This document shows, in pieces, positions 2,500 through 42,829 of a DNA stretch of 42,829 bases. The position numbers were made by a program, and so were the translations under genes. Every line of letters starts with the position of its first letter. Positions within the stretch are counted from its first letter, which is position 1. A model generated the notes under the pieces. That model was not told the DNA's origin. It saw only the letters and a list, made by a program, of their open reading frames with translations, and made no database searches. Source of the DNA: Verrucomicrobiota bacterium (lineage in GTDB: Bacteria; Verrucomicrobiota; Verrucomicrobiia; Chthoniobacterales; Chthoniobacteraceae); the NCBI GenBank assembly GCA_003402745.1, contig QQND01000019.1:1-42829 (forward strand). The letters are read 5' to 3'.

Positions 2500-3981
2500 T
2501 TAGAAAATGAAGTAAATAAACGGATTATAGTCCTGCGTCAGAAGCGCTACGACGGCCAGCCCGCCGAGGCACAACACGCCCAATACTTTTGGGACGGTCA
2601 ACGTCTGGGTCCATTCCCAGGTCTGGCGCCCGAAGCAAACAATGGCAGCACTCAAAATGAAATGCGCTTGCAGATACGACTGCTGCGACAGCCCGCCAAG
2701 GGCCTCAGGAAGGCTGTTAGTAGGAAAGACGCGAGACATTGCGCGTAGATACTCCAGAGCCTCTGTCAGGGATGCGGCCCTAAAAAATACCCACCCCACC
2801 AAAACCACACCAAGCGTGAAAACCCGCGCCACCACCGGCGGCGGCGTCACTGCCGGAAACACCCTGCGCCCGATGCGTTCGGCTGCGAGCACGCCGCCGT
2901 GCAGGACGCCCCAGACGATAAAGTTCCAGGAAGCGCCGTGCCAGAGCCCGCCAAGGAGCATCGTGAGGAACACGTTCAAACACGCCCTGCCCTCCCCAAG
3001 CCTGTTGCCGCCCAGTGGAATATACAAGTAATCGCGGAGCCACGCTGAAAGGGAAATGTGCCAGCGCCGCCAGAAGTCGGTCAGGGAAGTTGCGGCATAA
3101 GGGGCGTTAAAATTGCGCGCAAACACGAACCCGAAAAGCAGGCCCAGACCAATGGCCATGTCGGAGTACCCACTGAAATCAAAGTAGATCTGCATGGCGT
3201 AGGCCACGGCGCCCGTCCACGCCTCGAAAGCCGTGCGAGAAGCCCCATCGAATGCGGCGTCCGCGATTTGCCCGCAGGGGTTGGCGAGGAGGACTTTTTT
3301 GGAAAGACCGAGGAGAAAAAAAGCGCCGCCACGGACAAATTTATCAAGCGTGAGCGTGCGCGACTTGAGCTGTTCGGCGAGGAAGGAAAACTTCAAAATC
3401 GGACCTGCCACGAGGTGGGGAAACATGGAAACGAAACAGGAGAAGTCGACGAAGTTTTCCATCGCCTCGGCCTCCCCCCGGTAGACGTCGACAATGTAAC
3501 TGAGGGCCTGGAACGTATAGAAGCTAATCCCAAGAGGGAGAACTACGTGCATTGTTGTCTGGAGCGCGGCGGACGAGGCTCCAAACGCGGCGGCAAGCTG
3601 GTTCCACGTTTCGACTCCGAAGTTGAAATATTTAAAGAATCCCAGAGCCGTGAGGTTGCTGAGAACAGAGAGCAGCAGCGCCCTTTTTCGCGTGGCACTC
3701 GCCGGATTGTTTGCCGTGTGCGGCTCGAGACACCGCACCGGTCCACCGACCTTCCAAAAACACCACCGGTCTCGGGCGATCACCAAACTCAACAGCCAGT
3801 CCAGAGTCGTTGTAGCGAACATAAGCGCGAGAAAGCGGGGTTCCGCCCAGCCGTAAAAAAGGTACCCTGTGAGGACCAGCCACAGGTTGCGCATTCTCTG
3901 GGAGGCTCGCGCCAGCAGGTAATAACCGGCCAGGGCGAGCGGCAGGAAGTAGAAGAGAAAAAGATGCGAACTGAAGACCAT
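2500..3981 (-). CDS. AlgI-like MBOAT-family O-acyltransferase
   Basis: A 493-residue polytopic membrane protein of the MBOAT family. Hallmarks are FDFSGYSDMAIGLG, the WRRWHISLSAWLRDYLYIP stretch, and GGLWHGASWNFIVWG with the invariant histidine. AlgI-type proteins move an acetyl group from a cytoplasmic donor across the inner membrane to a periplasmic SGNH partner, here the AlgJ-like gene directly downstream. The length matches AlgI and DltB-like acetylation partners. Only 44 bases separate its start from the divergent acetylation gene at 4026, so the two operons probably share a control region. The symbol algI is left out because alginate itself is not indicated: no alginate polymerase genes are in view. 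Confidence 0.9.
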   Translation of the reverse strand: MVFSSHLFLFYFLPLALAGYYLLARASQRMRNLWLVLTGYLFYGWAEPRFLALMFATTTLDWLLSLVIARDRWCFWKVGGPVRCLEPHTANNPASATRKRALLLSVLSNLTALGFFKYFNFGVETWNQLAAAFGASSAALQTTMHVVLPLGISFYTFQALSYIVDVYRGEAEAMENFVDFSCFVSMFPHLVAGPILKFSFLAEQLKSRTLTLDKFVRGGAFFLLGLSKKVLLANPCGQIADAAFDGASRTAFEAWTGAVAYAMQIYFDFSGYSDMAIGLGLLFGFVFARNFNAPYAATSLTDFWRRWHISLSAWLRDYLYIPLGGNRLGEGRACLNVFLTMLLGGLWHGASWNFIVWGVLHGGVLAAERIGRRVFPAVTPPPVVARVFTLGVVLVGWVFFRAASLTEALEYLRAMSRVFPTNSLPEALGGLSQQSYLQAHFILSAAIVCFGRQTWEWTQTLTVPKVLGVLCLGGLAVVALLTQDYNPFIYFIF

Positions 3982-4025
3982 GCAGGGAAGTCGCTAAAAG
4001 GACTTGAGGTGGGGAGCAAAAATGA

Positions 4026-28347: not shown

Positions 28348-30309
28348 TCAAAGCGAGGCGCTGACAGAATTTATTAAACCGCCAATTTCGAGATTAGATC
28401 GCCAGTCTGAAAACAATGCCGCTCGTGTGCGTAAGATAAGGGAATCTAAAAGACGGAGCGGCGCATCGTAAACGGCTTCCAAGCCACCTTCCTGACCGGC
28501 GCCAAAATGCCGGGAAAAGCTCTCAGAACCCAGACCCGGGAAAAAACGACAGATCAAAGCCAGCGTGTCCCACCACAATTGTGGAGGGATCGCGGCCAGA
28601 GCTTCTTCTGAAGAAAGCGGAGTAAAAAGAAGATGTTGAGGGCCCAACTTATCCAGCCTGTGAGGCTCCTCGGAAAAAGTCTTTTCGATAATAGTGCCAA
28701 GAGAAGCTGCTGGGGCCCGGTCGAAAACAGTTCGAGTCAAACTCAGGAGAGCGTCCAAAGCAAAAGGCAAGGGTATTTGTGTATTCGCAACAAGGATTTG
28801 TGTGGCGAGAACGCCCAGGGAATATAAGTCCACAGGAGAACTCAGGGAAGGAATCATGGAAAAAGGCAAATGACTGAAAGTAGAACCCACTGCCGATTGG
28901 AGAGCTGAGAGCGAGGCGTTTGAAAATGAACGAGGCAGAGTTTTTAAAATCGCTTCGCCGCTTTTGATGGATTTCGATCGGGGATCAAAAAAACCGTGAA
29001 GATCCACCAATTCTGAGGAAAGTGGGACTTGCAAACAGACAAGAACATCAGCAACTGCAGCAAGATTTTCTGAAGAAGATAGGGAGACTTCAAGGCAGAC
29101 GTCCCCGTTCTCAGAGGGAAGAATTCGCAAGATCCGAATCGAACAATGACCTTGAACAGCCTTATTCAACGCCTCGGGCTGATAAATCGATAACGAAGCT
29201 GCCCCACGACGTTGATACACCGTAGAGAGAGTTCCCGGCACCGTCAGAGAAACCGCGTCAGAAGGCTGCAAAAGATAAACCTTGGCATTCCAGAAAGGAG
29301 GTAAACCGTCAGCACCGTTTTCAAACCGCACGCCAAAGCTGGCGGCGCAAAGGTTGAAAAAAGGAAGTTGAAGAAAACGTGTGGAACTTTGCACGCAGGA
29401 CACAATTTGTCGCAAAAGAACGAGTTTCAAATGCAACGTTTCGAGCAAACAACCCGCGCGTCCAGCGCGCGCTGAAATGAGGAATGCGGCTCCCTGCTGG
29501 AGATAATCAACCCGGCTCAGATCCTCGTAAATGCCACTCAGGACAAGGGGTTGTTTCGCGTTTTCAATGCCAGGCCAAGGAATACCTCCTAGAAGAGCAA
29601 GATGCTGCTCCAAACTCACTGGAATAAGACGGCGTACAATCAGCCTAGGCGAAGAGCTGAACAACGAAATTTTAACGGCTGATGAAGAAGAAGCGGTCTC
29701 GGCGGATTGAAACGGATTCGAAGACGGGTTTATTTTACGAAACTCGGTTTCACCAGTTTCCAAAGAACAAGAAAGAAAACGCTCGTGGCTTGCGTGATAT
29801 GAAGGAAGTCCGGCTGCTGCCAGAAGGGTGTCATCGGTGCACAGCTTCCAGGGTTGACCAGCAGTGTTCTCAGATAGGGAGGTGGTATTTGTCGCCAGCG
29901 ATATTACGACTGGCTGAAGATGGGCGTTAACGAAAGAAGTGTGAATATAACAATCCGGAGCCGAATGTTTTAAATTAGCCGCCAACCTTGCCCATTCCAA
30001 ATCAAGAAGGTGATTCAACGGCGGTGTACCGAAGGTTGGAGAACACAGGGCGCTCGCACCTGTTTTTTGCAGCCAAAGCTCCAGCCAATCCAGAACCTTC
30101 CCTTCGGCATCCGTGACACAGCCTAACACGACGCTTGCAAGAGTGGTTTCACGAAGCGTCAGAAGAAAACCCGCGAGAGGATCGGGGGTGACGCGCAGCG
30201 CAAGGCAAACCTCTAATCCCAGCAGAGAGCTTACAGGCTGGATCGGAACGGCCCTCAAGTGAGACGGTAAACCTAAAGGGTGAAAAAAATGAATCTCTCT
30301 TTCAGTCAT
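28348..30309 (-). CDS. Kinase-like protein of unknown function, divergent from the type VI locus
   Basis: A 653-residue soluble protein read leftward from an ATG with an AAAGG ribosome-binding site 6 bases upstream. No enzyme family is assigned. In the second half, SPVDLYSLGVLATQILV matches protein-kinase subdomain IX (D-x-Y-S-L-G-V-L), and the sequence around it could be the C-lobe of a degenerate kinase. I find no glycine loop, no HRD and no DFG motif, so it would be a pseudokinase at best. The N-terminal ~250 residues resemble nothing I know. It is transcribed away from the lipoprotein gene at 30427 across a 117-base shared promoter region, which suggests a regulatory role in the same system. 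The GC content is clearly lower than in the left part of the window. Confidence 0.6.
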   Translation of the reverse strand: MTEREIHFFHPLGLPSHLRAVPIQPVSSLLGLEVCLALRVTPDPLAGFLLTLRETTLASVVLGCVTDAEGKVLDWLELWLQKTGASALCSPTFGTPPLNHLLDLEWARLAANLKHSAPDCYIHTSFVNAHLQPVVISLATNTTSLSENTAGQPWKLCTDDTLLAAAGLPSYHASHERFLSCSLETGETEFRKINPSSNPFQSAETASSSSAVKISLFSSSPRLIVRRLIPVSLEQHLALLGGIPWPGIENAKQPLVLSGIYEDLSRVDYLQQGAAFLISARAGRAGCLLETLHLKLVLLRQIVSCVQSSTRFLQLPFFNLCAASFGVRFENGADGLPPFWNAKVYLLQPSDAVSLTVPGTLSTVYQRRGAASLSIYQPEALNKAVQGHCSIRILRILPSENGDVCLEVSLSSSENLAAVADVLVCLQVPLSSELVDLHGFFDPRSKSIKSGEAILKTLPRSFSNASLSALQSAVGSTFSHLPFSMIPSLSSPVDLYSLGVLATQILVANTQIPLPFALDALLSLTRTVFDRAPAASLGTIIEKTFSEEPHRLDKLGPQHLLFTPLSSEEALAAIPPQLWWDTLALICRFFPGLGSESFSRHFGAGQEGGLEAVYDAPLRLLDSLILRTRAALFSDWRSNLEIGGLINSVSASL

Positions 30310-30426
30310 ATAACCTTTTCATATCAAAGCGTGGCTTTGCAGAAAGTAAACCTGAAGAACGTTACATGACATTATGCGTTGCGTGAGCAGATAGTTTTTG
30401 TAACCTTAAACAAATCTTCATCTGCT

Positions 30427-30933
30427 ATGATGCCCCGAAAAGTTTCTAGCCCGACCTTTTTATCGCACATTAACGTTCTGTTTTTGTTGTGTTTAGGGGT
30501 GTTGTTGAGCGCCTGTTCAAGCTTGCAGGAAGTCAGGGTAAGCGCAGCTCCCAGTCTTAGAAGAGCTTCCATTCAGGTGGATATCGCGGGTGTTAATCAG
30601 TTGGAACGAGGCATTGTGGAGGGTGCACCCATCAGCAAATATTTTCAGCCTGGCAACACCGTCCGGCTTGGATTGCAGACTCAGGCAATGCGTTTCGGAG
30701 GAGACCAACCGTTTTCGCAGTCTGTAACGGCAGAAAGTCCAGTTTGGAAGGGCTGGTTAGCTAAGAAGTCGGTCGACATTGTTGTACTGGCTGACGTACC
30801 CGGAGTATTCGACGACCTTCCAGGAGAAGCGGATCCACGCCGCAAAATACTCCCTTTGAGCGGGAAAACCGCTCCAAAAGGGGTGGTTAACTTGGAGATC
30901 TTCGAAGGGGGACTGCGCTTCTCAAACCCATAG
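30427..30933 (+). CDS. Lipoprotein in the TssJ position of a type VI secretion locus
   Basis: A 168-residue exported lipoprotein. It has an N-terminal signal (INVLFLLCLGVLLSAC) ending in a lipobox LSAC, so the Cys becomes the lipidated first residue. The mature domain is beta-rich: SIQVDIAGVN, ISKYFQPGNTVRLGLQ, SVDIVVLADVPGVFDD and GVVNLEIFEGGLRF. TssJ is an outer-membrane lipoprotein of about this size with a beta-sandwich that anchors TssM. Sequence similarity to canonical TssJ is not obvious to me; position and architecture are the basis of the call. The two adjacent Met codons (30427 and 30430) are both possible starts; no ribosome-binding site is clear. Confidence 0.55.
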   Translation: MMPRKVSSPTFLSHINVLFLLCLGVLLSACSSLQEVRVSAAPSLRRASIQVDIAGVNQLERGIVEGAPISKYFQPGNTVRLGLQTQAMRFGGDQPFSQSVTAESPVWKGWLAKKSVDIVVLADVPGVFDDLPGEADPRRKILPLSGKTAPKGVVNLEIFEGGLRFSNP

Positions 30934-30960
30934 TCACGACCGACTTCCCAAGGATACAAC

Positions 30961-33900
30961 GTGTTTGTATTTGGAACGTTTCGTGCAAAATCGGAGATAG
31001 GATGGGGAAAATTCTCCATCGTGTACGAAGCCGAGTCGACCGGAGCGGCAGGGCCGACCGTCATAAAAAGTGTAAGTTTACAGTCGCAGGAACAGGACTT
31101 TTTAGAGGGTGTTAACGCCGCCTCTTTCCACAAGGCGGTGGAAAGACAGAAAAGGGCACACACACACGGGTGTAAGGGCGTCCTGCCTATTTTAGCGAGC
31201 GGGAGGGAAGGGCTTTTTGGTTTTTATGTAACGCAGAGATGTTCGCGGTCACTTCAGGATTGGATTTCACAGAGGGTTCACCTTCCGATTGGCACCCTTG
31301 AAAGCATTGCTTCCGGGGTCCTTCAGATTCTGGAAACATTGAAGGAAAAAACTAGAGCAGGCCACGGGAACTTGAAGGCCGCCAACATTTTGACCCTCGG
31401 TACGGGAGACAAGCTGGAGCTTCTCGTAACTGATTTCTCCGCCGAGGATCTTCCCCCGGCCAGAGATTTGCAGGCACTGGGCTTGGTCCTTGTCCAACTG
31501 GTCTTACGCCGCAGCATGGAGACGGTTGACTGGCCCGTCCCCCAATCTCGGGAATGGGCGCAGTTCGGCACTGAGGGCGAGGCGTGGCGTGCGTACTGCA
31601 ATTTACTGTTGGACCCAGCATTTGGCGCGCAGCCGGACAGCCTTTCTGCCGCGCGTGTGGTCCTTCCAAAGCAGAAGAAAAAAACGAGGCGGTGGGCTAA
31701 AATTGCAATTGGCACCGGTCTAGGATTTGCAGCTTTGGCGTGCGGGTTCGTGTTCTTCAAAGCCGAGCCGCCGCCAGCCCCGGTGAGTGGCGAAGCATGG
31801 GAAGTATTCTGTGAAGAGTACGACCAGTGGTTCGGCTATTTTTGCAGCCATGCTGGGGAATGGCGAAACAAGGCTGAAAAAAATGCATATTTGAAAGAGC
31901 AGATGGTTAAACGGCTCGACGAAGTTCGGGGCGAAAAAGATCTGAAAGAGGCGTTCGATCCGCGCAACATTATTGCCGAAAGTGGCAGCTCAAAACGCGG
32001 CGACCCTAAAAGCTTCGCGCCAGATTTACCCAGTCTCTCGGCTAAAGAGTTGAGCCGCGTCAACCGAGCGATGCAGGCGGTGGCGCTGGTAAAAACGGCG
32101 GTTGAAGGGTGGCCTGAACCGAAGGAAATGCAAAAAATGTTGAGCGAAGGTGGACCGACAGGTCTGAAACTCGACAACGCCTTTGTCCCGAAATGGGGTA
32201 TCGAACTGCCGGTATGGCTCGCCTTAAACGTGGGGCTATCGGACGCCTGGAAAAAACTTGGAGAACACGAGAAATACTTAAACGCTTTCAACAATGAATA
32301 TGTAAAAAGCGCCTCCAAGAAAACTCTGGAGGAAGCGCAGAAAGCGGAAACATTGGGCGACCTTGAGGGGCTCCTTCAGGAGGCGAGCAACAATGCTCTG
32401 GAACTATCAACGTTCTTGAAGGCCAATCCAGAGGATCTGGAAAAAGAACGGCTTGATGCCGTGAGTATCGACTATCGAGGCAAGTCTTTGGCGGTCGCTA
32501 AGGAATGGCGGCTGCGTGCCGAGGAAACCATGCTTAAACCCAAAACTTGGTTGGCCAATCTGAGCAAGCCAGTCGGAAACCGTTCACGAGTGGTTCAGAC
32601 AAAATGGGAGGGAATAAAAAAAACCGCCTTGGAAGGTGTCACTGAAGCGACACTGGAAGCCAACCGGCCTCGATTCCGGGAGTTGAAGGATCAACTTGGC
32701 AGATGGGGCGCGCTCTTATCCAGAATCGATGAGGAATTTCCAGCGGCCACGTTAAACCCGGATACCGCCCAGAACCAGACGCTGCGTGTTGGTTTGCAAA
32801 AAGTGGCGGAAGAAACGCGGGAGCAATTCTTAGCGGGCCTCCTCCAAAATTTTCCTCAATCCTCCGCGAATTTTCAGGCAAACTTGCTTGAAGGTGTGGA
32901 GGCTTCAACGAGTGTACAAAAGTGGACGGCCACCTTGAGCAAGCTCTCTAAAATTCCGGAAGAGAGCGCAAAAGTTCAAACACTGCTTGCCAACGGATAC
33001 GGGTTGGAAGAGGGCATAAGCGCAGCACAAACCACGCTCCAACAGGCGGGGCAGGCCGAACCGGCTGCGGTGGCTGCGGCTCTTAACCTGCCAGAAATCA
33101 GAGAGCTTCTTTCCGTTGTGGAGGTAATGGCTCGCATCGCCACCACGGACACGCAGACGCTCGTGCAGACGCTCGTGCAGACGCTTGGAAACGCTCGGGT
33201 ATCTGTGGCGCTTGCCATATTGGCCAAGTTAGAAAAACAAGCGTGTGAAACGGAGGCCGCTTGGAAAAACTTCAAGGCTGCGGCCGATCTCGTATCCGCC
33301 CGAGTTAAAGAGAATATTCGGGCCGAAGAGCGCCAAAGTTTGCTTTTAAAACAGGTGTCGGAAGCCACCACTCAGCAGTGGTTTTCGGTCTTCAGGCGAT
33401 ACGATCCCGACCAGATGCGAAAGATGGTCGCAATCAAAGAGCAGGCGCAGCTCGCGGCCGCCGGCTTCACCGGGCGTGACCGCTACAACCTAGCGGTTTT
33501 GAAAGCACAAGATGCATTGGCCCAAGGGCAGGGGTTTGAGCCTGCGACCGTGCGCACCGATTTTTTAAACGAGGTGGCAAACCTCTCAGACCCGGGATTG
33601 GTGGCTGAACCCGCCGTGTCTACGCTCTTAGCGGGGCTGAAGCCCCTGACTTTTAGTGCAGACCGGAAAGCGTCCGCTGAAAACAGTAAGCCCATTCAGA
33701 GAGGATGGCGTTTGGTTTCCGAGAAGTCGGTGCCAGAACAGTCCGCGTTTCTTCGTTGGCAGGGGCGCAAACAGCTGCACGAGATGAGCTTGGTGCGTTT
33801 CCAGAGAGCTAACGGCACCTCATTTTTCCTGGCCAGCTCGGCGGTATCCCTCGGGCTAGCCGCTGACTGGCTGGAGCGGGAAGATGTTAACCTCCCGCTC

Positions 33901-34668
33901 CCCGCTCCCGCCTTAAGCCGCATCCCAGCAGTTTGGGTGGCCGCCGGCCGAAGCCTCCTTCCAGCCACAGACTGGTTTGGACCGAAAGAAGCGCCTAATT
34001 TCTCCAAGGCCAACCACTATCCGCCCGGGTTTCCATCCCAGGACAAACAGGCTCCGAATTTGGAATCGCCGATGGTGTATTTGGCGGCGAAAAAGGCGGA
34101 TCAACTGGCGCAGAACATGGGATTCCGACTGCCAACTCCCGAAGAGTGGGAGGCCGCGTGCGAGCAAACCAAATCAAAATCTGAAGCCCTCGCCCATTTT
34201 AATTTTCGCGATGCAACATGGAATGCAGAGCAGCGACATCTCAAAAATCTACTCGTTACAACACTCACTCCAGGTGGCCGCCCCGCGCTGATCCCGACCT
34301 TGGACCAGTTGGAAACCTTTGCTCCAGACAGTTCCCCAGGCCGCTCTAAGAACCCACTTCCCGTGCATGAGGGGGACGATCGGTTTTTGTGGTTCGCACC
34401 AGTCGGCCAGGGAGGCCAGACCGGTCTCATGCATCATCTGCTTGGAAACGTCTGGCAGTTTGTAAAACGAAGTGAAGGAGACTTCTACGCGGTCGGAGGG
34501 TCAGCGCTTTCGGAACCGAGGGCGCAAGAGCGGCCCGTAAAGGTGGACCGTACAGAAACAGCCTACACGGACGTCGGACTGCGCCTGGCGATAGATTCTG
34601 ATTTTGTTGAACCTAAGGAAGTTACGGAACTAAAAAAACTTTTCAGGGAAGCTAAACTGTCCAGGTAG
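30961..34668 (+). CDS. Pseudokinase-transmembrane-FGE-like fusion protein of the type VI locus
   Basis: A 1235-residue protein starting at a GTG with AAGGA upstream. Residues 1-230 have kinase-like landmarks: a glycine-loop G14-W-G-K-F-S-I-V-Y, K36 in VIKSV, then H135-G-N137 where active kinases have HRD, and D158-F-S where they have DFG. The lost catalytic aspartate suggests a pseudokinase. One transmembrane segment follows (about 247-267), then a long helical periplasmic region. The C-terminal ~280 residues are formylglycine-generating-enzyme/SUMF1-like: RLPTPEEWEAAC (about 1055), LLGNVWQF (about 1160), AVGGSALSEP and VGLRLAID. PpkA-type kinases of type VI systems have a related cytoplasmic kinase-TM-periplasmic design, and FGE domains occur in some such loci. 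The role is probably signal transfer across the inner membrane. Confidence 0.75.
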   Translation: MFVFGTFRAKSEIGWGKFSIVYEAESTGAAGPTVIKSVSLQSQEQDFLEGVNAASFHKAVERQKRAHTHGCKGVLPILASGREGLFGFYVTQRCSRSLQDWISQRVHLPIGTLESIASGVLQILETLKEKTRAGHGNLKAANILTLGTGDKLELLVTDFSAEDLPPARDLQALGLVLVQLVLRRSMETVDWPVPQSREWAQFGTEGEAWRAYCNLLLDPAFGAQPDSLSAARVVLPKQKKKTRRWAKIAIGTGLGFAALACGFVFFKAEPPPAPVSGEAWEVFCEEYDQWFGYFCSHAGEWRNKAEKNAYLKEQMVKRLDEVRGEKDLKEAFDPRNIIAESGSSKRGDPKSFAPDLPSLSAKELSRVNRAMQAVALVKTAVEGWPEPKEMQKMLSEGGPTGLKLDNAFVPKWGIELPVWLALNVGLSDAWKKLGEHEKYLNAFNNEYVKSASKKTLEEAQKAETLGDLEGLLQEASNNALELSTFLKANPEDLEKERLDAVSIDYRGKSLAVAKEWRLRAEETMLKPKTWLANLSKPVGNRSRVVQTKWEGIKKTALEGVTEATLEANRPRFRELKDQLGRWGALLSRIDEEFPAATLNPDTAQNQTLRVGLQKVAEETREQFLAGLLQNFPQSSANFQANLLEGVEASTSVQKWTATLSKLSKIPEESAKVQTLLANGYGLEEGISAAQTTLQQAGQAEPAAVAAALNLPEIRELLSVVEVMARIATTDTQTLVQTLVQTLGNARVSVALAILAKLEKQACETEAAWKNFKAAADLVSARVKENIRAEERQSLLLKQVSEATTQQWFSVFRRYDPDQMRKMVAIKEQAQLAAAGFTGRDRYNLAVLKAQDALAQGQGFEPATVRTDFLNEVANLSDPGLVAEPAVSTLLAGLKPLTFSADRKASAENSKPIQRGWRLVSEKSVPEQSAFLRWQGRKQLHEMSLVRFQRANGTSFFLASSAVSLGLAADWLEREDVNLPLPAPALSRIPAVWVAAGRSLLPATDWFGPKEAPNFSKANHYPPGFPSQDKQAPNLESPMVYLAAKKADQLAQNMGFRLPTPEEWEAACEQTKSKSEALAHFNFRDATWNAEQRHLKNLLVTTLTPGGRPALIPTLDQLETFAPDSSPGRSKNPLPVHEGDDRFLWFAPVGQGGQTGLMHHLLGNVWQFVKRSEGDFYAVGGSALSEPRAQERPVKVDRTETAYTDVGLRLAIDSDFVEPKEVTELKKLFREAKLSR
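33153..33185 (+). repeat. 12-base tandem repeat inside the fusion gene
   Basis: GCAGACGCTCGT is repeated twice and then in a partial third copy (33153-33164, 33165-33176, 33177-33185), encoding TQTLVQTLVQTL. It keeps the frame, so copy number may vary without breaking the protein. Confidence 0.85.
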
Positions 34669-35008
34669 ATTTTTGGCGGGGTATTTTTAAGCGGGCAAGA
34701 AATTATGCAGGATACAATCTCCGGGAGGGGCGTGCTTTGTCGATCGGGAGGGAAAAACACGGTGGGAAACTGGGGGACCGTCGAGGACCAAGACGCAGAG
34801 GATAAATATATGGAGCAGTTGGATTTTCTCAACCGTGGCAACCGAATAAATGAACCGCTTAAAAAGACGCGGAATGAAACCAAGACGCCGTGAGCCGATT
34901 ATGGACCAAGTCTCCGGCTCCGCCTGAGATAGGCGACATGAGATCTTGGGCTTGCAGATACTCGTTATATAAATTATGCAAAAGCTTTAGCCAACATACG
35001 CCAGAAGA
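34669..35008. other. Gene-poor interval within the type VI locus
   Basis: About 340 bases between the fusion gene and the TagH-like gene. A 62-codon frame (34705-34893, plus) encodes a charged peptide, MQDTISGRGVL to RNETKTP, preceded by weakly purine-rich sequence; it could be a small gene but has no recognisable domain. Its base composition does not separate it from non-coding DNA. The right-hand end holds a promoter candidate. I see no RNA gene. Confidence 0.4.
34946..34973 (+). promoter_or_regulatory. Sigma-70-like promoter candidate for the tagH-like/tssKLM/tagF operon
   Basis: TTGGGC (34946-34951), a 16-base spacer and TATAAA (34968-34973) lie 35 bases before the start of the next gene. 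The match is moderate, and the AT-rich surroundings are otherwise rare in this high-GC DNA. Confidence 0.4.
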
Positions 35009-35932
35009 ATGTTTGTACTCGACGCACCCGCTTGGGCTCAACAACTCGCTGCCAAACTCCGGCTCCTCCATGCAGACCTAGCCGGTGTTGGTCACGAGCA
35101 GCGCGGAGGCTTCCTACAACAGGAAATCAGGCGTGCCCTTGAAGACATCGTGCCAGAACGCCGCAAAGAATACATGGAAGCGCTGGCCCCCTATTTTCCC
35201 CAAGGGGAAAATTCTTCTCCCGTAGCAGTGCCGGCCGTCCCCGGCTTGGAGGCACCTCTGACGCCAGAAGAGTTGCTGGCAAACCTCGTGCGGATCGCTC
35301 CCCTGTTACCCAAGCGCAAGCTCGAGAGCTTCAGTCTGGAGTTGCAAAAAGCGGGATATCTCCCTCTGGAAACGACCGCTTTGATAGACGCACCTCCGGA
35401 GGACCTCCGCGGTGTGTTCCCCATGGAAGAGGGTCGCCAGGTAGATCTCCAAAGGCTGTACCGGCTGGTCCACATCCTGGGTGAATTTTACGTCAGTCTC
35501 GATAAGGTCACCTGGAACATCTGGCGTGCGCTGGCGCCCAAATCTACGTTCCGCAAGGAGAACTCTCCCTTGAATGACGTCAGTAAAATGGGGGGTCGAT
35601 ATCTGACGGGGGATTCTGAGGTGTCCGCCGAGCAACTTAAGCAAATCACGGGGCGGCTGCGGCAATTATTGGCGGGCGTCCTCACCGCCATCGGCCCTGC
35701 GGGCCGCAGTTTCGCCCAAAAACACCTCGCCCGATTTAGCCCAGACGCTATCCGGGACATCGTCAATCAGGAAGCAGGCTTCTTCTCCAACCTCGAACAG
35801 AAGTGCTGGCGCAAATACAGCGAACTCAATCAGGAATTGAGTGCGGATGGCATCGAGGGAGAACTGCAGGAGGCCATCGCCAGATATACGGAGAACCTGA
35901 TCCGCGGCATTAGTCGTCCTCCCGACGCTTAG
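35009..35932 (+). CDS. TagH C-terminal-domain-like protein without an FHA domain
   Basis: A 307-residue soluble protein. The first ~130 residues (a helical segment with DIVPERRKEYMEALAPYFP, then TPEELLANLVRIAPLLPKRK) are unfamiliar. From about residue 150 the pattern fits the C-terminal domain of type VI FHA proteins: LYRLVHILGEFYVSLDKVTW, then ENSPLNDVSK (compare N-P-L-K), ARFSPDAIRDI (compare F-D-P-E-x-L) and KCWRKYSELNQEL (compare W-x-x-Y-x-x-L). The N-terminal FHA phosphothreonine-binding domain of TagH/Fha is missing. The call rests on this pattern and on its position just before tssK. A different scaffold of the baseplate is the main alternative. The gene starts with ATG after a weak AGAAGA. 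Confidence 0.5.
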   Translation: MFVLDAPAWAQQLAAKLRLLHADLAGVGHEQRGGFLQQEIRRALEDIVPERRKEYMEALAPYFPQGENSSPVAVPAVPGLEAPLTPEELLANLVRIAPLLPKRKLESFSLELQKAGYLPLETTALIDAPPEDLRGVFPMEEGRQVDLQRLYRLVHILGEFYVSLDKVTWNIWRALAPKSTFRKENSPLNDVSKMGGRYLTGDSEVSAEQLKQITGRLRQLLAGVLTAIGPAGRSFAQKHLARFSPDAIRDIVNQEAGFFSNLEQKCWRKYSELNQELSADGIEGELQEAIARYTENLIRGISRPPDA

Positions 35933-35959
35933 TTACCTCCACAAAAACTACACTGAGTT

Positions 35960-37339
35960 ATGTCTTTCCAAATCCACTGGCACGAGGGTCTCTTTTTGCA
36001 GCAGCATCATTTGCAGATGATGCAGAAGGGTGTTTATGACGCCATTGCCGCACAGCGTAATCTGACCGCTTCCTATCCTTACGGCATCGTTGAGATGCGG
36101 CTTGCCCTCGATGACCTGGAGGCGTTGCGACTGCGTTTCACGCGTCTGAGGGCTATTATGCCCAGCGGCTTGGAGGTGGACTTTCCTCATGGCGCAGACC
36201 TCCCCTCGATAGACATCAAGCAGGCCTTCAGCGGGAGCGCCCTCGCGATCCCTGTTTATCTGGCGGTTCCACTCTATTACCAGTCCAGGGCCAACACTTT
36301 GGAGGCAAGTCGCTCCGACGATGCACGAGCCAAGCTGTTGTATAAAACTGCGGAGGTCGAAGTGGCCGATGAAAATACGGGTGAAAATCCCAAGCCGCTG
36401 CTCGTGCGGCGGCTCAACGCGCGCTTGATGCTGGAGCATGAAGACCGCTCGGACATGGAGGTGATTCCGCTTTTAAGAATTGTCCGAGCCACCCAACAAG
36501 AGGTCGCGCTCCCTCGCCAAGATCCTGATTTTGTCGCCCCGTGCCTCGTGCTTTCTGCCTCTCCTGTGCTGCGCGAATTGGTGCGCGACTTAGCCAGTCA
36601 GGTGGAGGCCAACCGCAAGGAACTCACCATCCAAGTCTCGAGGGGCGGCTTTAGCATGGAAACGCTTCGAGGCATCCAATTCGAACAGATTTTGCGCCTG
36701 CGCACTTTGAACCGTTTCAGTGCTAGTTTGCCTTCTCTGGCACAGGCCCAAGCCGTTGCGCCATTTCTAATCTATCTGCAGTTGCGTGAGTTATTGGGAG
36801 AACTGACCGCATTGTATCCGGATCGGGATGATTTCGATGTGGCAGCTTACAACCATGACAACCCACTTCCTGTGTTTCGGGAACTGGACAAAAAACTGCG
36901 TTCGTACCTCCGTGGCTCCGTGGCTCCCAGCTATCTGAAAGTCGCGTTTGTGGTGGAAAGCGGTGAGACGCAGACGGCCAGGCTCTCGGAGGAGCATTTT
37001 ACCAGGCCGAACGATTATTTTTTGGGTATCAAAACCAAGGAAGATCCCAAGTCTTTAGCCCAGTTTGTAGAAGACGACGACGCCTTCAAGTTCATGCCGC
37101 GCGGATTCGAAAAAATGGCGATCCGGGGTGTCAAACTCAAGGAGGAACGCCACCCCCCGCTGGAATTGCCTGCTCAGAATAACCTCCATTATTTCAGGCT
37201 GTTGCGGGGTGAGAACCCGCGCATGTGGGCGCAGCTTGAAATGGAAAAGGGAGTCGTCATTCGCTGGAAAGGCAAGGTGGACCCCGACTACGAAATCACC
37301 CTTTACATGACCATTCCCAGCGGAGGTAAAACGCCATGA
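35960..37339 (+). CDS. tssK: Type VI secretion baseplate protein TssK
   Basis: A 459-residue protein of family length, starting with the typical IHWHEGLFLQQHHLQMM (compare V-x-W-x-E-G-M-F-L-x-P-Q-H-x-Q). TssK is a trimeric baseplate subunit that joins the TssFGE wedge to the membrane complex TssJLM. Later blocks LFYQSRAN-like (PLYYQSRAN), ILRLRTLNRFSASL and HYFRLLRGENPRMWAQLEMEKG are also typical. The final four bases overlap tssL (ATGA), which indicates coupled translation. Unlike the flanking regulators, nothing in it looks degenerate. Confidence 0.93.
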   Translation: MSFQIHWHEGLFLQQHHLQMMQKGVYDAIAAQRNLTASYPYGIVEMRLALDDLEALRLRFTRLRAIMPSGLEVDFPHGADLPSIDIKQAFSGSALAIPVYLAVPLYYQSRANTLEASRSDDARAKLLYKTAEVEVADENTGENPKPLLVRRLNARLMLEHEDRSDMEVIPLLRIVRATQQEVALPRQDPDFVAPCLVLSASPVLRELVRDLASQVEANRKELTIQVSRGGFSMETLRGIQFEQILRLRTLNRFSASLPSLAQAQAVAPFLIYLQLRELLGELTALYPDRDDFDVAAYNHDNPLPVFRELDKKLRSYLRGSVAPSYLKVAFVVESGETQTARLSEEHFTRPNDYFLGIKTKEDPKSLAQFVEDDDAFKFMPRGFEKMAIRGVKLKEERHPPLELPAQNNLHYFRLLRGENPRMWAQLEMEKGVVIRWKGKVDPDYEITLYMTIPSGGKTP

Positions 37340-38040
37340 ACCTTTTGGAGCTTTGCGAGCCCCTCTTCCAGTACGTTTGCCTCCTCAACAGGGCGGGGCG
37401 AAAATCAGGGCACTATGAATACGTGGCGGTCAGGGCAGAAGTGCTGTCGCTTTTTGAACAAATGCACACCCGGGCGATCTCGGATCCGCGTCTAAGTCAT
37501 CAGTACAAGGCGCTGGAATTGACGCTGCTCTTTTTCACGGACTCCATGATCAGCGAGAGCGGACATTCTTTTGCCTCAAAATGGAACTCGAGCCGCCTCG
37601 CCGATGAACGCAGTGAACTGGCGGGGGATGAAAAATTTTATGACCACTTGGAAGCGACGATGGCCGACCAGAGTCCCGAGGCCTCAGAGCGGTTGGCGGT
37701 GTTTGCTACCATGATCGGCCTGGGCTTTACCGGATGGTACCACGGTCAGCCAGAGTACCTGCGCAAGAAAATGCTCGAAATCACCCCGCGCATCCGCCCT
37801 TTTATGGAGGCTGATGTGACTGGGAAACTCTGCCCCGAGACGTACGAAAACGTGGACAGGCGGGATCTGGTGGAGCCGCCCAGCAGGGGCATCGCTTTTA
37901 TAGCCATCGCCTTCGTGGTGTTTTGTTTCACGACGCTGGCCTGCAACTATTACCTGTTCGACAAGTCCACTAAACACCTTATCGCCTCCTTGAAAGAGGT
38001 GCTCAAACGCGAGGCTGAATTTGGCCAGGCGGGAAATTAA
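37336..38040 (+). CDS. tssL: Type VI secretion membrane protein TssL (DotU family)
   Basis: A 234-residue protein with a cytoplasmic helical domain and one C-terminal transmembrane segment (about 183-206: GIAFIAIAFVVFCFTTLACNYY), the normal TssL/DotU topology. The domain has GDEKFYDHLEATMAD and MIGLGFTGWYHGQPEYLRKKM, matching the conserved L-G-F-x-G-x-Y block. It lacks a peptidoglycan-binding OmpA extension, so another protein must provide cell-wall anchoring; the TagF-like protein downstream is a possible candidate. It is coupled to tssK by overlap, and tssM starts 12 bases later. Confidence 0.9.
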   Translation: MNLLELCEPLFQYVCLLNRAGRKSGHYEYVAVRAEVLSLFEQMHTRAISDPRLSHQYKALELTLLFFTDSMISESGHSFASKWNSSRLADERSELAGDEKFYDHLEATMADQSPEASERLAVFATMIGLGFTGWYHGQPEYLRKKMLEITPRIRPFMEADVTGKLCPETYENVDRRDLVEPPSRGIAFIAIAFVVFCFTTLACNYYLFDKSTKHLIASLKEVLKREAEFGQAGN

Positions 38041-38052
38041 AAAGGATGGGAT

Positions 38053-41000
38053 ATGTTTGAATTCAGCAGTCTACCGAACCCCGTGAAAGCGCTCTTGGCG
38101 GTGCTCACCGGCACCAGCATTATCGGCGCAATCAGTTTGTTGGATCCCGGCCTGACCGGCATCGTAGCTGTCGGGATGCTCATCCTTGCTGCTTTGGTGG
38201 GCGGGTTTCTCATGCTGCAGCGGGTTCTCGAACGCAAAAAATCCAATTTGTTAACCGGCGGCATCCAGCAGCAGGCGGGTGCCGTCCCGACGGGTATCAA
38301 CGACGCCACCGGCCGTAAAAACCTGGATGATTTACGACGGAGTTTTGAGGGGGGCTTGGAAAAATTTAGAAATGCGGGCAAGGATATCTATAAGTTGCCC
38401 TGGTTCATGTTCGTGGGCGAACCCGGTTCCGGGAAAACAGAGGCCATCCGCCATTCCAACGTCGGGTTCCCGCCCGGCTTGCAGGATGAAATGCAGGGGG
38501 CCGGAGGGACCATCAATATGAATTGGTGGTTCACCAACCAGGCTGTCTTCCTAGACACCGCTGGCCGCCTCATGTTTGAACAGGTCCGGCCGGGCGACAC
38601 CAGCGAGTGGAGGGAGTTTCTCCAAATGCTTCGACGCAGTCGTCCGAATTGCCCCGTTAACGGACTGCTGTTGGTTATTCCCGCAGACAGCCTGATTAGA
38701 GACACCCCGGAGGAAACCTCGCGCAAGGCGGGAAGAATCGCCCAGCAACTCGACACCATCCAGCGGACATTGGATGTGCGTTTTCCAGTGTTCGTGCTGA
38801 TCACCAAAGGAGACCTGCTTAATGGGTTCCGAGAATTCTTTGAGGAATTCAACGACCTTCACACCCAGAACCAAATGTTTGGCTGGTCCAACCCAGCCGA
38901 GCGGGACGAGCCTTTCCGGCCCGAACTGGTCACTCAACACATTGACTCGGTCATCGCCCGCATTCGCAAGAGGCGTTTGGGCCTGCTTAAGGATCCTGTG
39001 CCTCGCAATACGTCTGGCCGTCGGGCGGACGAGGTGGATGCACTTTTTGCCTTTCCTCAGAGCCTGGCCCTCATTGCCCCCCGGCTGCGACATTATCTGG
39101 AACAGATCTTTGTAGCAGGCGAGTGGTCTGCCAAACCCCTTTTTCTTCGGGGTATTTATTTCACTTCCGCCATGCGCGAAGGAAGGGCTCTGGACCAGGA
39201 ACTGGCCCAAGCCGTGGGCTGTTCGCTAGAAATGTTGCCGGAGGGTAAGGCCTGGGAACGAGAAAGAGCCTGCTTCTTGAAGGATCTTTTCACAGAAAAA
39301 GTCTTCCCTGAGAGAAATTTGGTGACCCGAGCCACGAACACGAAACGAATGCTTCGTCAACGGCAGGGGCTCCTCTTCGGCATCGGCGCCCTAGCTTTGG
39401 CCGGCTTTCTCGGCTTCTCTCTCTACCAGTACAGCGCCCTCCAGAGTAGCGTCGGTGAACACGAACAAATTTGGCAGGGCGCCGCCAAGGACTGGACCAC
39501 CGCCAAATGGAATCCTCTGCTGAAAGCCAATTTCAATGGCGGCACCGAGTATCGTTACCTCGGGGACCAACCGGTGGAATCTTACCGGGAGAACCGGGAG
39601 CTGCGGGATAAGCCCCTTTTGAGCATCTTGGAACGGCTCCAGGAGCTCGCCGCCGCCCCGATTGAAACAGGCTGGGTGTTTCGACCCCTGGCAAGTTTGA
39701 GCAGCATCAAAGAAGACCGTGTTAAAGCGCAGCAAGTCGTTTTCAATGCCAGTGTCGTCTCGCCGGTCATTAACGCCGCCCGGCAGCGCATGCAAAACGC
39801 AGAAACAGCTCCCTCAGCTGAGCCCAAAAAAGCAGCGGAAAACCTTCTAATAGAGGCTCATGCCATCGCGGCCCTCCTCCGGCTGGAAATGGACGCCCTG
39901 CAAAAACCCGACAGCTTCGAGGGCGTCCCGCCTTACTTCAGCACCCTCCTAGAATATTCTCTGTCCGAAAAAATTAAGGACGTCGAACAAGTCTCGCGCC
40001 TCCTGACCAAAAACTTCGAAAGGGTCCCATGGCCCCCCGTATGGGCTGCGCGCAGCGCGAGTTCGCTCGCCTCCAATCCCCCAATCCAAAAAGGGCTTGA
40101 ACGCCTCAAAAATTACGCAGATCTGTCGGGGACATCCTATCACAAACACCTTTCAAAAATTCAGGAGCTTTTGGCGGCACTCCGCGAATTCCAGGCCAAG
40201 GAACATGATTTGAATGTCAAACCAACCCTTGAGTCCAAGAGCGATCCTGCCCTGCTCGCCGAAATGGTCCGGCTCTACGAGCAACTGGGTGAAAAAAGAA
40301 AACATCTGGATCTCAAAATCAAGGAAGTCGCAGAAGAAGGTCTCCTGTCTTCCGCTGCAGATGGCCCAAACTCAGCCCTCGCTCAATCGTACGCCCGCGT
40401 CGTCGCTTCCGGAAAAAGCCAGTCCGATGACGCTTTTACCCTCCTTCAAAAAACCTGTTCCCCCAGACTTGGAGACGACAAAAACCGGCTCTTCGCCGAT
40501 GTCGATGCCGCCCTCAAAAAGAAACGCCAGGAAATTGCCGCCCTCCTCGAACAATCCTTGCCCCCCGCTGATGTCGAGGCACTCCAGAAACTCGACGATG
40601 CTTACCTCGCTGATTCCGGAGACCATAAAAGACGGGTTTACGAATTGCGCTGGGATTTGTATGAACGCAGCTACCAGCAGCTCCATCTCACCAAGGGCAA
40701 TCGCGATTTGATCGGAACAGAATGGAAGGAGGCAGGTGCGGTGAAAACACGCCTCCGCGATATCACGGCGTTGGTCCGGTCTAATCAGGAAAAACTGAAG
40801 GAAAAATTCGAGGCCTGTGATTTCTTCCTCGATCTCGCCTTGCGTGGGGGAAACGACCTCATCATCGACGCCTATCTCGCTGAAGTACAACGTAAAGTAG
40901 GGCCCGCGGTGCAGTTCCCGCTCATCTGGCCCCCCGGAGGCCGGACGCTTTCTCCAGCACAAATGAAGGAAACAGGCCAGCTCCTCCGGGACGTGCGCAA

Positions 41001-41520
41001 GGACATTGCTGCAGAGTGGGTGCAGACTCTGGAGCCCTATCAAAAAGACCGCCTCCTCAAAGTCCCCAAGCAGTTCGCTCCGCTGGAGGCGTTTCGGGAC
41101 AGTCTACTTGGTCCTGAGGGCAAGTCGGGCACTTTCACCGTCACCCTCATCAATTACAAAGACCAGACCGACAAGGCGTCTCTGGCGAAATGGAGGGCGG
41201 TGGTTGTTAACAACCGAGTCCAATCCACCAGCGTGGCTTCCAATACCGAAGTCGGAACCTTTCCCGCTGACGGAGACTTCACCGTCGTTTTCAAGGAATA
41301 CACGGACGGGACGGGCAGCAGCCGGACCGTGAGTGGAGGCGGAAGCTGGTCTTTGTTAAAACTCCTTAAACAAGGCGGACGGGCCAAACCTTTGGACGGT
41401 GGACGGCGCTGGCAAATGCCTGTGGCCATCGGCGAAAGCTCCATCGTTTTTGAATTTGCTTTTGACAAACCACTTCCTGACCTGGGCTCCTGGCCTACGA
41501 AGGAGGCGGTGGGTCTGTAG
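38053..41520 (+). CDS. tssM: Type VI secretion membrane protein TssM (IcmF family)
   Basis: A 1155-residue inner-membrane protein of family length. Two transmembrane segments occupy about residues 10-60, followed by a cytoplasmic nucleotide-binding domain with Walker A GEPGSGKTEA (about 122-131) and DTAGRL (about 166-171). A third membrane segment (about 440-460) leads into a large periplasmic part that should contact the TssJ-like lipoprotein. Not all TssM proteins keep Walker A, so this one may bind or hydrolyse nucleotide. An AAGGA ribosome-binding site precedes the ATG. Sense-strand C content rises toward the 3' half. Confidence 0.95.
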   Translation: MFEFSSLPNPVKALLAVLTGTSIIGAISLLDPGLTGIVAVGMLILAALVGGFLMLQRVLERKKSNLLTGGIQQQAGAVPTGINDATGRKNLDDLRRSFEGGLEKFRNAGKDIYKLPWFMFVGEPGSGKTEAIRHSNVGFPPGLQDEMQGAGGTINMNWWFTNQAVFLDTAGRLMFEQVRPGDTSEWREFLQMLRRSRPNCPVNGLLLVIPADSLIRDTPEETSRKAGRIAQQLDTIQRTLDVRFPVFVLITKGDLLNGFREFFEEFNDLHTQNQMFGWSNPAERDEPFRPELVTQHIDSVIARIRKRRLGLLKDPVPRNTSGRRADEVDALFAFPQSLALIAPRLRHYLEQIFVAGEWSAKPLFLRGIYFTSAMREGRALDQELAQAVGCSLEMLPEGKAWERERACFLKDLFTEKVFPERNLVTRATNTKRMLRQRQGLLFGIGALALAGFLGFSLYQYSALQSSVGEHEQIWQGAAKDWTTAKWNPLLKANFNGGTEYRYLGDQPVESYRENRELRDKPLLSILERLQELAAAPIETGWVFRPLASLSSIKEDRVKAQQVVFNASVVSPVINAARQRMQNAETAPSAEPKKAAENLLIEAHAIAALLRLEMDALQKPDSFEGVPPYFSTLLEYSLSEKIKDVEQVSRLLTKNFERVPWPPVWAARSASSLASNPPIQKGLERLKNYADLSGTSYHKHLSKIQELLAALREFQAKEHDLNVKPTLESKSDPALLAEMVRLYEQLGEKRKHLDLKIKEVAEEGLLSSAADGPNSALAQSYARVVASGKSQSDDAFTLLQKTCSPRLGDDKNRLFADVDAALKKKRQEIAALLEQSLPPADVEALQKLDDAYLADSGDHKRRVYELRWDLYERSYQQLHLTKGNRDLIGTEWKEAGAVKTRLRDITALVRSNQEKLKEKFEACDFFLDLALRGGNDLIIDAYLAEVQRKVGPAVQFPLIWPPGGRTLSPAQMKETGQLLRDVRKDIAAEWVQTLEPYQKDRLLKVPKQFAPLEAFRDSLLGPEGKSGTFTVTLINYKDQTDKASLAKWRAVVVNNRVQSTSVASNTEVGTFPADGDFTVVFKEYTDGTGSSRTVSGGGSWSLLKLLKQGGRAKPLDGGRRWQMPVAIGESSIVFEFAFDKPLPDLGSWPTKEAVGL

Positions 41521-41548
41521 GTGTTTCCAAGCTTCAAACTCATCAGCC

Positions 41549-42829
41549 ATGCGTTTTTTTCATTCCCTTGTGACTGCTTTGGCCGGGAATGCGAAGCCGC
41601 CTGCCATCCAGCTTGGGGTATTTGGAAAGCACCCCGGCTGGGACGACCATCTTGAAGACTTTGGCCTTCACACAGAGCCCCTGTTGACGGTCAAACAACT
41701 CCTCTACGTCCAGGGAATTGGCGGCGCTATCGATGCCGACCTTTGGAGTTCCCTCAACGAAAAAGACGATCTTGCTCAACTTCACCACTGGTTTCTCTGG
41801 AGTGCAGGTCCCGATTGTATTGTCGGCCGTATCTGGCCTTCGATCGACCGCAAAGGCCGCTCCCGCTTTCCAATGGTCGCGTGTGTCCACGTCAGCCATG
41901 CCCCCATAAAACCGCTCCTGGAATGGCTCACGCTTCGCCTCCAATCTCTCGAGGCTCTGTGCAAGGCCGCTTCCGAGGCGGAGGCCGTACTGGATATTTT
42001 GCGCGCCGAACAAAATATCCTCAATGCCGAGTTCTCCCTCCCTCGAAGCAATCCTGAAACAGCCACCAACACAGTCCCCTCATACCAAACAGAACAGTGG
42101 CTGCGAACTATCTATTCCTGCGACAACCAACTCGCAAGATTCAGCGCAGCCCGCCCCAGCAAAGCCCTTTCCGGCTTGAACCGTCAACTTGTTCTCGGTG
42201 CCGCCGAGTGCCAACACCTACGCCTTGCCGCGCGCCAGGAACCCTCTTTAGGGGAGGTTCTTTTTTGGTCCGAATTCATCAGCCACTGGCTTTCCCCGGG
42301 TGTGCCTCTTCTGCTCTTGCGACCGGAGGGCCAACCCTGGCTGGACGCCCTGGTCGGCAGGCCCTCCCCAAAGTCCTTCTTTTGTTTGCGCGCAAAAGAC
42401 CAAGTTCTCCCCTGCGTCGCAAACATCCCATTCACCCTCCTTCCGGATGCAAACGAGACGGCCCAAAAACGCTTTCCCTTTTTATTCTCAGCCCAAGGCG
42501 TTCCTTCCAGCTTCAAACCGGAACAGACATCGATACGGCCTTCAAAAGGACTGGCGTTCCTAGCGCTAAGCCTCGTAGCGGGAGGCACCTGCCTCCTTCT
42601 AGTTGCAGTGGCAGCATATTTTTCAAAAAAGCCGCCTTCCTTCCCGTCTCCGTCCCCGTCCGAGAAAACCCGAGACGCCAGCGCTGACTTGGAAAGTACA
42701 CCTCCGCCGCGCGGACCGGTCTCGACAGACCAGCAAGCTGCACTACAAAAAACGCCCCCCCCATCTCCGACCCCCACCCCGCCTCCCACCCCGCCTCCCA
42801 CCCCGCCTCCGACCCCGCCTCCGACCCCG
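41549..42829 (+). CDS. TagF/ImpM-domain protein with membrane anchor and proline-rich tail (partial)
   Basis: The frame opens 28 bases after tssM and is still open at the window end (427 codons seen). Residues 20-130 form a TagF (ImpM) domain: LGVFGKHPGWDDH and GRIWPSIDRKGRSRFPM correspond to G-x-x-G-K-L-P-x-x-G-D-F and P-S-x-D-x-x-G-R-x-F-P of the family. The middle region to about 330 has no assigned fold. A transmembrane segment follows (about 334-358: GLAFLALSLVAGGTCLLLVAVAAYF), then an acidic/Pro-rich segment with TPPP repeats. Known TagF proteins are cytoplasmic repressors of type VI assembly and are sometimes fused to the PppA phosphatase; membrane anchoring with an external Pro-rich linker is unusual. 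The missing C-terminus could carry a cell-wall binding domain. Confidence 0.85.
   Translation, partial: MRFFHSLVTALAGNAKPPAIQLGVFGKHPGWDDHLEDFGLHTEPLLTVKQLLYVQGIGGAIDADLWSSLNEKDDLAQLHHWFLWSAGPDCIVGRIWPSIDRKGRSRFPMVACVHVSHAPIKPLLEWLTLRLQSLEALCKAASEAEAVLDILRAEQNILNAEFSLPRSNPETATNTVPSYQTEQWLRTIYSCDNQLARFSAARPSKALSGLNRQLVLGAAECQHLRLAARQEPSLGEVLFWSEFISHWLSPGVPLLLLRPEGQPWLDALVGRPSPKSFFCLRAKDQVLPCVANIPFTLLPDANETAQKRFPFLFSAQGVPSSFKPEQTSIRPSKGLAFLALSLVAGGTCLLLVAVAAYFSKKPPSFPSPSPSEKTRDASADLESTPPPRGPVSTDQQAALQKTPPPSPTPTPPPTPPPTPPPTPPPTP
42776..42829 (+). repeat. 12-base tandem repeat coding for TPPP units
   Basis: ACCCCGCCTCC followed by C or G is repeated four and a half times, up to the window end and perhaps beyond. 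It encodes the proline-threonine linker of the TagF-like protein. Confidence 0.9.

Follow-up and report, generated by a model that had tools for sequence, protein, structure and literature searches.

A type VI secretion locus of the Verrucomicrobiota with a conserved predicted pseudokinase at the PpkA position and a TagH-like protein without an FHA match

The DNA analysed here (the window) is the entire contig C19, 42,829 nucleotides, with no further sequence into which to extend it, of G000, a metagenome-assembled genome (MAG) of the Chthoniobacteraceae (Verrucomicrobiota; 2.79 Mb, 102 contigs, 68.8% complete). The eight locus proteins encoded from position 28,348 to the right end (Table 1) form part of a type VI secretion system (T6SS), namely its membrane/baseplate half, inserted after rnc: a 653-residue protein on the minus strand is followed on the plus strand by a small lipoprotein, proteins of 1235 and 307 residues, TssK, TssL, TssM and a TagF-like protein. 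An earlier reading of this DNA from its letters and open reading frames (the sequence-only reading) had called TssK, TssL and TssM clear and intact, as their Pfam matches confirm, and all seven reading frames that end inside the contig are open throughout. The motif readings of that account also stand, although it left out the lipoprotein gene and the C-terminal domain of the kinase-like protein. A TssK with 75% identity, found by tblastn, lies on contig CAIYQA010000263.1 of an uncultured Spartobacteria MAG.

Table 1. Coordinates of the genes and protein features of the T6SS locus in the window.
Feature	Position	Strand	Remarks
653-aa protein of unknown family	28348..30309	-	T6SS-linked in the order; helix-F-like DLYSLG at residues 494-499
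Small lipoprotein	30379..30933	+	Lipobox LLSAC, Cys46; TssJ- or TagQ-like by position only
PpkA-position transmembrane predicted pseudokinase with FGE-fold C-terminus, 1235 aa	30961..34668	+	Pkinase match at residues 8-159
HGN instead of HRD, residues 135-137	31363..31371	+	Invariant in 3/3 covering orthologs
DFS Asp158 to helix-F Asp169, activation segment and APE missing	31432..31467	+	11 residues
Single transmembrane helix, residues 248-266	31702..31758	+	Hydropathy; between kinase-like and C-terminal parts
FGE-sulfatase-like domain, about residues 1029-1211	34045..34593	+	PF03781 and PDB profile matches
FHA-less TagH-like protein, 307 aa	35009..35932	+	T6SS_FHA_C match at residues 231-281
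TssK	35960..37339	+	PF05936, 232.6 bits, E 1e-68
TssL/DotU, short form (no OmpA match)	37336..38040	+	PF09850, 62.5 bits, E 5.6e-17
TssM/IcmF_N, Walker A GEPGSGKT	38053..41520	+	PF14331, 201.8 bits, E 1.5e-59
TagF-like protein, then transmembrane helix and proline-rich tail	41549..42829	+	Likely start ATG 41549; cut by the contig end

To judge by its sequence, the 1235-residue protein at the PpkA position is a conserved pseudokinase common to two families of the order. Its Pkinase match (23.4 bits) lies under the cut-off of 31.7, and its relationship to kinases is established by hhalign, which gave 99.5% over 174 columns against a profile of 29 HRD kinases, compared with less than 1% for two unrelated control families; the profile was drawn from 30 kinase loci of T6SS genomes, one of which was dropped because no open reading frame fitted the motif. 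Three orthologs (those of the window, G058 and G038) cover the kinase domain, and in all three, across the two families, the catalytic loop reads HGNL, in keeping with the HGN reported in the sequence-only reading. The DFG position, given there as DFS, reads DFS, DLG and DLA in the three orthologs, with the Asp kept in each. Also altered is the spacing from this Asp to the helix-F Asp, which amounts to 11-13 residues in the three orthologs as against 39-48 in the 28 of 29 kinases that were measurable, so that the activation and APE segments are missing; the glycine loop appears degenerate by eye. Because the HGN motif and the short activation segment are shared by all three orthologs, in a domain that hhalign nevertheless aligns so firmly with kinases, a conserved loss is indicated rather than decay.

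Beyond the kinase-like part, hydropathy predicts one transmembrane helix in each of the three orthologs, and the isolated C-terminal domain matches PF03781 (28.7 bits, cut-off 23.3; three of five members match at E ≤ 1), the family of the formylglycine-generating enzyme (FGE). A profile of this domain retrieved FGE, EgtB and CalU17 from the PDB, the best match being 5aoh (E 1.1e-4), which is listed under another name. The enzyme itself has a catalytic pair of Cys residues, and there is no Cys between GNVW and the end of the window protein. The layout of PpkA, seen also in the PpkA of Acidovorax (PMC12607579), is retained in its kinase fold (by sequence), its transmembrane helix and its domain beyond the membrane, and what is absent is the HRD Asp and the activation segment. 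In G038 and G058 orthologs of the small lipoprotein hold the same position, so that its gene adjoins the pseudokinase gene in all three loci with a complete pseudokinase gene.

Matches to the pseudokinase were found in 19 of 213 genomes searched, of which five, all TssK-positive, hold clear orthologs: complete genes in G000, G038 and G058 and contig-end fragments in G051 and in G031, which is placed in the same family as G000. The matches in the remaining 14 genomes (E 2e-6 to 1e-3) cover the kinase or the FGE part only and are taken as ordinary domains of those kinds. G026 and the T6SS genomes of families f2, f5 and f6 yielded no clear ortholog.

The 307-residue protein occupies the position that tagH holds in Caballeronia sp. 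Lep1P3 (tagH-tssK-tssL-tssM-tagF). Like TagH/Fha, it lies before tssK. To T6SS_FHA_C the window protein gives a weak match (16.7 bits, cut-off 23.7), and this model is the commonest Pfam match of 15 aligned orthologs (7/15, best E 2.6e-4). Unlike TagH/Fha, it shows no match to FHA (PF00498), nor is FHA one of the nine families to which the 15 orthologs gave matches with E ≤ 10. The name TagH-like is used here because hhalign gave no support against three proteobacterial TagH proteins (0.1-1.7%) and PF20232, the model of the TagH C-terminus, found nothing in 367 genomes of the phylum, G000 included; that search also missed the window's own protein, and the number of T6SS carriers among the 367 is not established. 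A PDB profile search with the family returned nothing useful. The sequence-only reading was right to describe a TagH-like protein without FHA; since the absence of FHA is common to all 15 orthologs, it is old here and did not arise in this genome. An annotated FHA-domain TagH of Caballeronia sp. Lep1P3 (plasmid p1, L182:16783-17976, with kinase and phosphatase genes nearby) starts with low-complexity Ala/Asn repeats and has no evident FHA by eye, and an FHA-less TagH may consequently not be unique.

The last gene follows tssM, a position that fits TagF. Its product matches TIGR03373 (21.4 bits, E 2.2e-4) and PF09867 (18.3 bits), both under cut-off; PF09867 (TagF_N) is found at E ≤ 1 in six of nine aligned proteins (best 0.0016), all nine of which share the motif GKHPxWxDH, and a PDB profile search with the family found nothing. 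The membrane anchor proposed for this TagF in the sequence-only reading is present in the window copy, where a transmembrane helix (about 42554-42610) follows TagF_N and the contig ends inside a proline repeat, but by hydropathy it occurs in this copy only: seven of the eight others are complete and have no such helix, and that of G031 is cut by its own contig end. In G058 and G051 the C-terminus is a short stretch that contains proline, with no transmembrane helix. The gene that follows tagF in G107 and G081 specifies a protein with a Zn-ribbon, a transmembrane helix, a proline-threonine linker and an OmpA domain (domains and linker read in G107, and assigned in G081 by 71% identity), which suggests that the TagF of the window may likewise finish in an anchor of this type, a peptidoglycan-binding or other periplasmic domain being predicted beyond the proline stretch. 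When OmpA was searched for as the missing end of tagF, G000 gave three matches, each of them on contig C45 and none placed and oriented as a continuation, and G031 gave one. This Zn-ribbon-OmpA protein (L058:9305-10168 in G107, and orthologs) could, on its own account, be a separate peptidoglycan anchor for a T6SS with a short TssL.

The 653-residue protein, encoded at the left edge of the locus, is linked to T6SS. It occurs in 13 of the 213 genomes of the order searched (TssK state known for 117 of them), and all 13 are TssK-positive, leaving G050, G081, G087 and G116 as the TssK genomes among 17 in which it was not found. Its gene adjoins T6SS genes in G000, G026, G038 and G058 and stands beside genes for the Zn-ribbon-OmpA protein or for an FHA2-ABC fusion (described below) in G043, G067, G075, G102 and G059. 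Its description as a second, divergent kinase was not confirmed: the 13 orthologs have no Pfam kinase match and only a single chance-level Pfam match of any kind, and the hhalign value of 42-52% against the 29 kinases is carried by a 14-column helix-F-like motif (score 38 versus 16 for a reversed control), falls to 0.2% with the reversed alignment and finds no support in global mode. A stretch read by eye as LPFLNLxxxSF could be a ruined catalytic loop. A PDB profile search with the family gave nothing useful.

Taken together, these features slightly favour, in our estimation, an assembly switch that works by protein contacts and not by threonine phosphorylation through the locus's own kinase. 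The sequence-only reading had proposed binding or scaffolding of this kind, and it remains the best-supported account, given the HGN motif, the deleted activation segment and the absence of FHA from 15/15 orthologs, although, with HRD kinases elsewhere in the genome and near T6SS genes in G051, phosphorylation in trans may still operate. Its broader picture, in which every part of the circuit would have been remodelled in G000, does not survive: the FHA-less TagH-like protein is common to relatives, the TagF anchor was seen in G000 only and the second kinase is unproven. That lost motifs point to binding as the mechanism is something that we infer.

Several observations weigh against such a switch. 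T6SS is present in G026, where the lipoprotein and pseudokinase genes are missing from that place. The lipoprotein, for which TssJ and TagQ are both possible identities, had no useful match in family or PDB profile searches, no TssJ match at E 10 and, in hhalign against one Rahnella TssJ, no match beyond the signal peptide. Structure models of the TagH-like pair (pLDDT 48) and of the 653-residue protein alone (pLDDT 36) were too poor for a fold search. The DFG-type Asp158 and the catalytic-loop Asn142 of the pseudokinase are invariant in the three orthologs and a beta-3 Lys is visible in two of them, one column apart in the alignment, so that nucleotide binding is possible; some kinases that lack HRD are, moreover, active. 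Each of the 17 T6SS genomes has Pkinase matches, with HRD seen in loci of each and with FHA matches too. In Acidovorax a catalytically dead PpkA fails to support T6SS assembly (PMC12607579).

Chief among the alternatives, if in itself unlikely, is phosphorylation in trans, whereby a separate active kinase and FHA proteins would run the switch and the pseudokinase would serve only as a partner or substrate, as the mycobacterial pseudokinase MviN does for PknB. Thirty-six stretches were scanned for kinase motifs, of which 26 carry T6SS genes or belong to T6SS contigs, nine surround the 653-residue gene and one is the window; the kinase-like catalytic loops in them comprised the three HGN genes and two HRD/DFG kinases only. 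Both of the latter favour this alternative by their location: one, which carries TPR repeats, is found some 2 kb beyond tagF (G051:C114:12136; L064:11344-14415) on a contig that also carries a C-terminal fragment of the pseudokinase, and the other, with a PEGA domain, lies beside the 653-residue gene (G107:C234:37974). In G000, which has ten Pkinase and five FHA matches, two FHA-Pkinase fusions with HRD lie on contigs C34 and C2 (no DFG was found by pattern in the C2 protein). Nothing ties these fusions to the locus, and yet together with the G051 kinase they are the main facts against a system free of phosphorylation. The sequence-only reading had named a complete canonical PpkA-PppA-Fha set elsewhere in the genome as the finding that would count against it; the lack of PF20232 matches among the 367 genomes excludes such a set only in part, and G000 has the HRD fusions on C34 and C2. 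A PP2C match was not found among the eight locus proteins scanned, no genome-wide search for PP2C having been made. Against phosphorylation in trans stand the small number of HRD kinases, just two in the 36 stretches, the position of both G000 fusions off the window contig, and the failure of PF20232 to match anywhere in the phylum set.

Further potential readers of phosphothreonine are also consistent with this alternative. Genes for the Zn-ribbon-OmpA protein and for an FHA2-ABC fusion (two FHA domains, an ABC ATPase and an ABC-2 permease, about 754 aa) are located in G107 between tagF and tssA; in G081 they follow tagF, in G116 they precede tssA, and in G026 the pair has genes for an FHA protein and an HRD/DFG kinase as its neighbours. 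The fusion (L058:10275-12539 in G107, L030:5343-7631 in G081, L061:10640-12901 in G116 and L140:1028-3409 in G059) accompanies T6SS-linked genes, among them or at their side, in other families of the order; it has paralogs elsewhere, several of them with a small FHA protein, and may act as a TagST-like transporter with phosphothreonine-reading domains of its own. The row in G026 (L227, G026:C50) comprises the Zn-ribbon-OmpA, FHA2-ABC, FHA and kinase genes, the last encoding 1097 residues with Sel1 repeats, and lies away from T6SS genes. Apart from these, a broken FHA/kinase-like stretch, of which an FHA fragment at 3879-3998 forms part, is present just upstream of the T6SS operon in G038 (G038:C20:3500-4400; L023).

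That the G000 locus is instead a degenerating island, the decaying remnant of a system without sheath and tube, is improbable. The proposal draws on the failure to find TssC, TssF or Hcp in the G000 assembly, on the absence of TssK matches from all 11 other members of the genus and on a GC content below that of most of the left part of the contig. TssK, TssC and TssF were searched for in 117 genomes (G000 and relatives): TssK was found in 17, TssC in 16, which are exactly the TssK genomes other than G000, and TssF in 14, the exceptions among the TssK genomes being G000, G102 and G107, whereas Hcp is present in 15/17, the exceptions being G000 and G102. Some of the TssC cases are weak, G102 having only a lower-scoring kind, G031 a contig-end fragment and G026 a gene in two pieces. 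On a single contig of G107 (C342) genes for TagH-like, TssK, TssL, TssM and TagF-like proteins are accompanied by those for the Zn-ribbon-OmpA protein, the FHA2-ABC fusion, a methyltransferase (other strand), TssA, TssB, TssC, Hcp and TagJ, and contig C56 of G026 holds TssC (186 kb), Hcp (187 kb), TssF (189 kb) and TssK (213 kb).

Because TssC, Hcp and TssF accompany TssK in relatives, whose systems are complete, the window locus amounts to one half of such a system, and the other half most likely lies in the missing third of the G000 assembly. The relatives' TssC is on a separate contig from TssK or shares its contig at a distance of 14-27 kb (G107, G026), so that with an assembly 68.8% complete its absence would, by our estimate, be expected in roughly three cases out of ten. 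On the absence of all sheath and tube genes, which the sequence-only reading had held to be decisive against it, the answer comes from the relatives and not from G000 itself. Together with the seven open reading frames, these considerations argue against decay. A second, lower-scoring TssC-like sheath gene (112-155 bits) in G038:C411, G052:C177, G087:C327, G102:C99 and G026:C58 perhaps belongs to another contractile system, and the tssM of G026 is apparently split, the reading frame at G026:C56:214930-218394 matching only residues 250-1038 of the window protein.

The site of insertion is evident from six genomes of the same genus, in which alaS and rnc are followed by a gene for a class-V aminotransferase (cysteine-desulfurase-like; identified by Pfam in G003 only and by BLAST and motif in the other five, the contig of G011 ending within the gene), whereas in the window the T6SS genes, which those six genomes lack there, come after rnc. 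The GC content is 0.58-0.64 in the left part and 0.51-0.56 from 25 kb onwards, but as the low-GC part takes in alaS (0.54), GC alone is weak evidence for insertion. The alaS of the contig is 74-87% identical to those of the 11 other genus members, so that the contig belongs to the genus and a binning error is ruled out.

That the HGN protein is a still active, unusual kinase is the least credible alternative, for although Asp158 and Asn142 are kept in all three orthologs and a Lys lies near the beta-3 position in two, the catalytic Asp is replaced in all three, the glycine loop is degenerate by eye and the activation segment and APE are gone.

Within the switch by protein contacts that is preferred here, the state of the envelope would be sensed beyond the inner membrane by the lipoprotein together with the FGE-fold domain, the role of TagQ/TagR in Pseudomonas; the signal would cross through the one transmembrane helix to the cytoplasmic pseudokinase, which would bind the FHA-less TagH-like scaffold, TssK or TssL, and this binding would oppose TagF. 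The lipoprotein and the FGE-tailed kinase-like protein look like a condensed, fused TagQ/TagR/PpkA sensor, a resemblance and not a claim of membership; the fold of TagR we take to be FGE-like, which a literature search did not confirm. More specifically, and only as a tentative and somewhat doubtful proposal, the phosphorylation switch may have been replaced in this lineage (families f1 and f4 of the order) by a single envelope-spanning dead receptor, with the FGE-fold sensor and the lipoprotein outside and the pseudokinase inside, acting directly on the FHA-less TagH scaffold and on TagF.

Compared with the H1-T6SS of Pseudomonas aeruginosa (TagQRST-PpkA-PppA-Fha-TagF), the window has in common a kinase-fold domain, a transmembrane helix, a domain past the membrane, a lipoprotein gene, a TagH-like protein, TssK, TssL, TssM and TagF, and differs in the lost catalytic Asp and activation segment, the FGE fold fused to the kinase-like protein, the lack of FHA and the lack of a phosphatase match among the locus proteins. 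The T6SS of Vibrio cholerae likewise has no PpkA-PppA pair of its own but, in contrast to the window, has a TagH with an FHA domain (both PMC10482370) and lacks TagF (PMC6082577). Acidovorax citrulli TssW-PpkA-Fha is similar in tying a transmembrane PpkA to an outer-membrane partner and a scaffold Fha, and dissimilar in that kinase activity is required (PMC12607579). Precedents for control by binding are found in two reports: in Serratia, a ppkA mutant regains Hcp secretion when tagF is deleted, with Fha still required (PMC6082577), and in Agrobacterium TagF-Fha repression is independent of the phosphorylation pathway (PMC5995506). The comparison also draws on PMC3953482, PMC8632748, PMC4454575 and PMC6657622. 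Among the titles listed in literature searches none was dedicated to T6SS in Verrucomicrobiota, and the one listed paper on T6SS phosphorylation that mentions "pseudokinase" has the word only in its reference list. What is new here is the deletion of the activation segment, the transmembrane topology and the FGE-fold end beside a lipoprotein gene.

Control of T6SS has been described mostly through the phosphorylation of Fha or TssL by PpkA, while genetics shows an opposition of TagF and Fha in which phosphorylation plays no part. If the interpretation given here is true, a natural T6SS with a dead protein at the PpkA position and no phosphothreonine reader would separate the binding role from the phosphorylation role, and would extend T6SS regulation to the Verrucomicrobiota.

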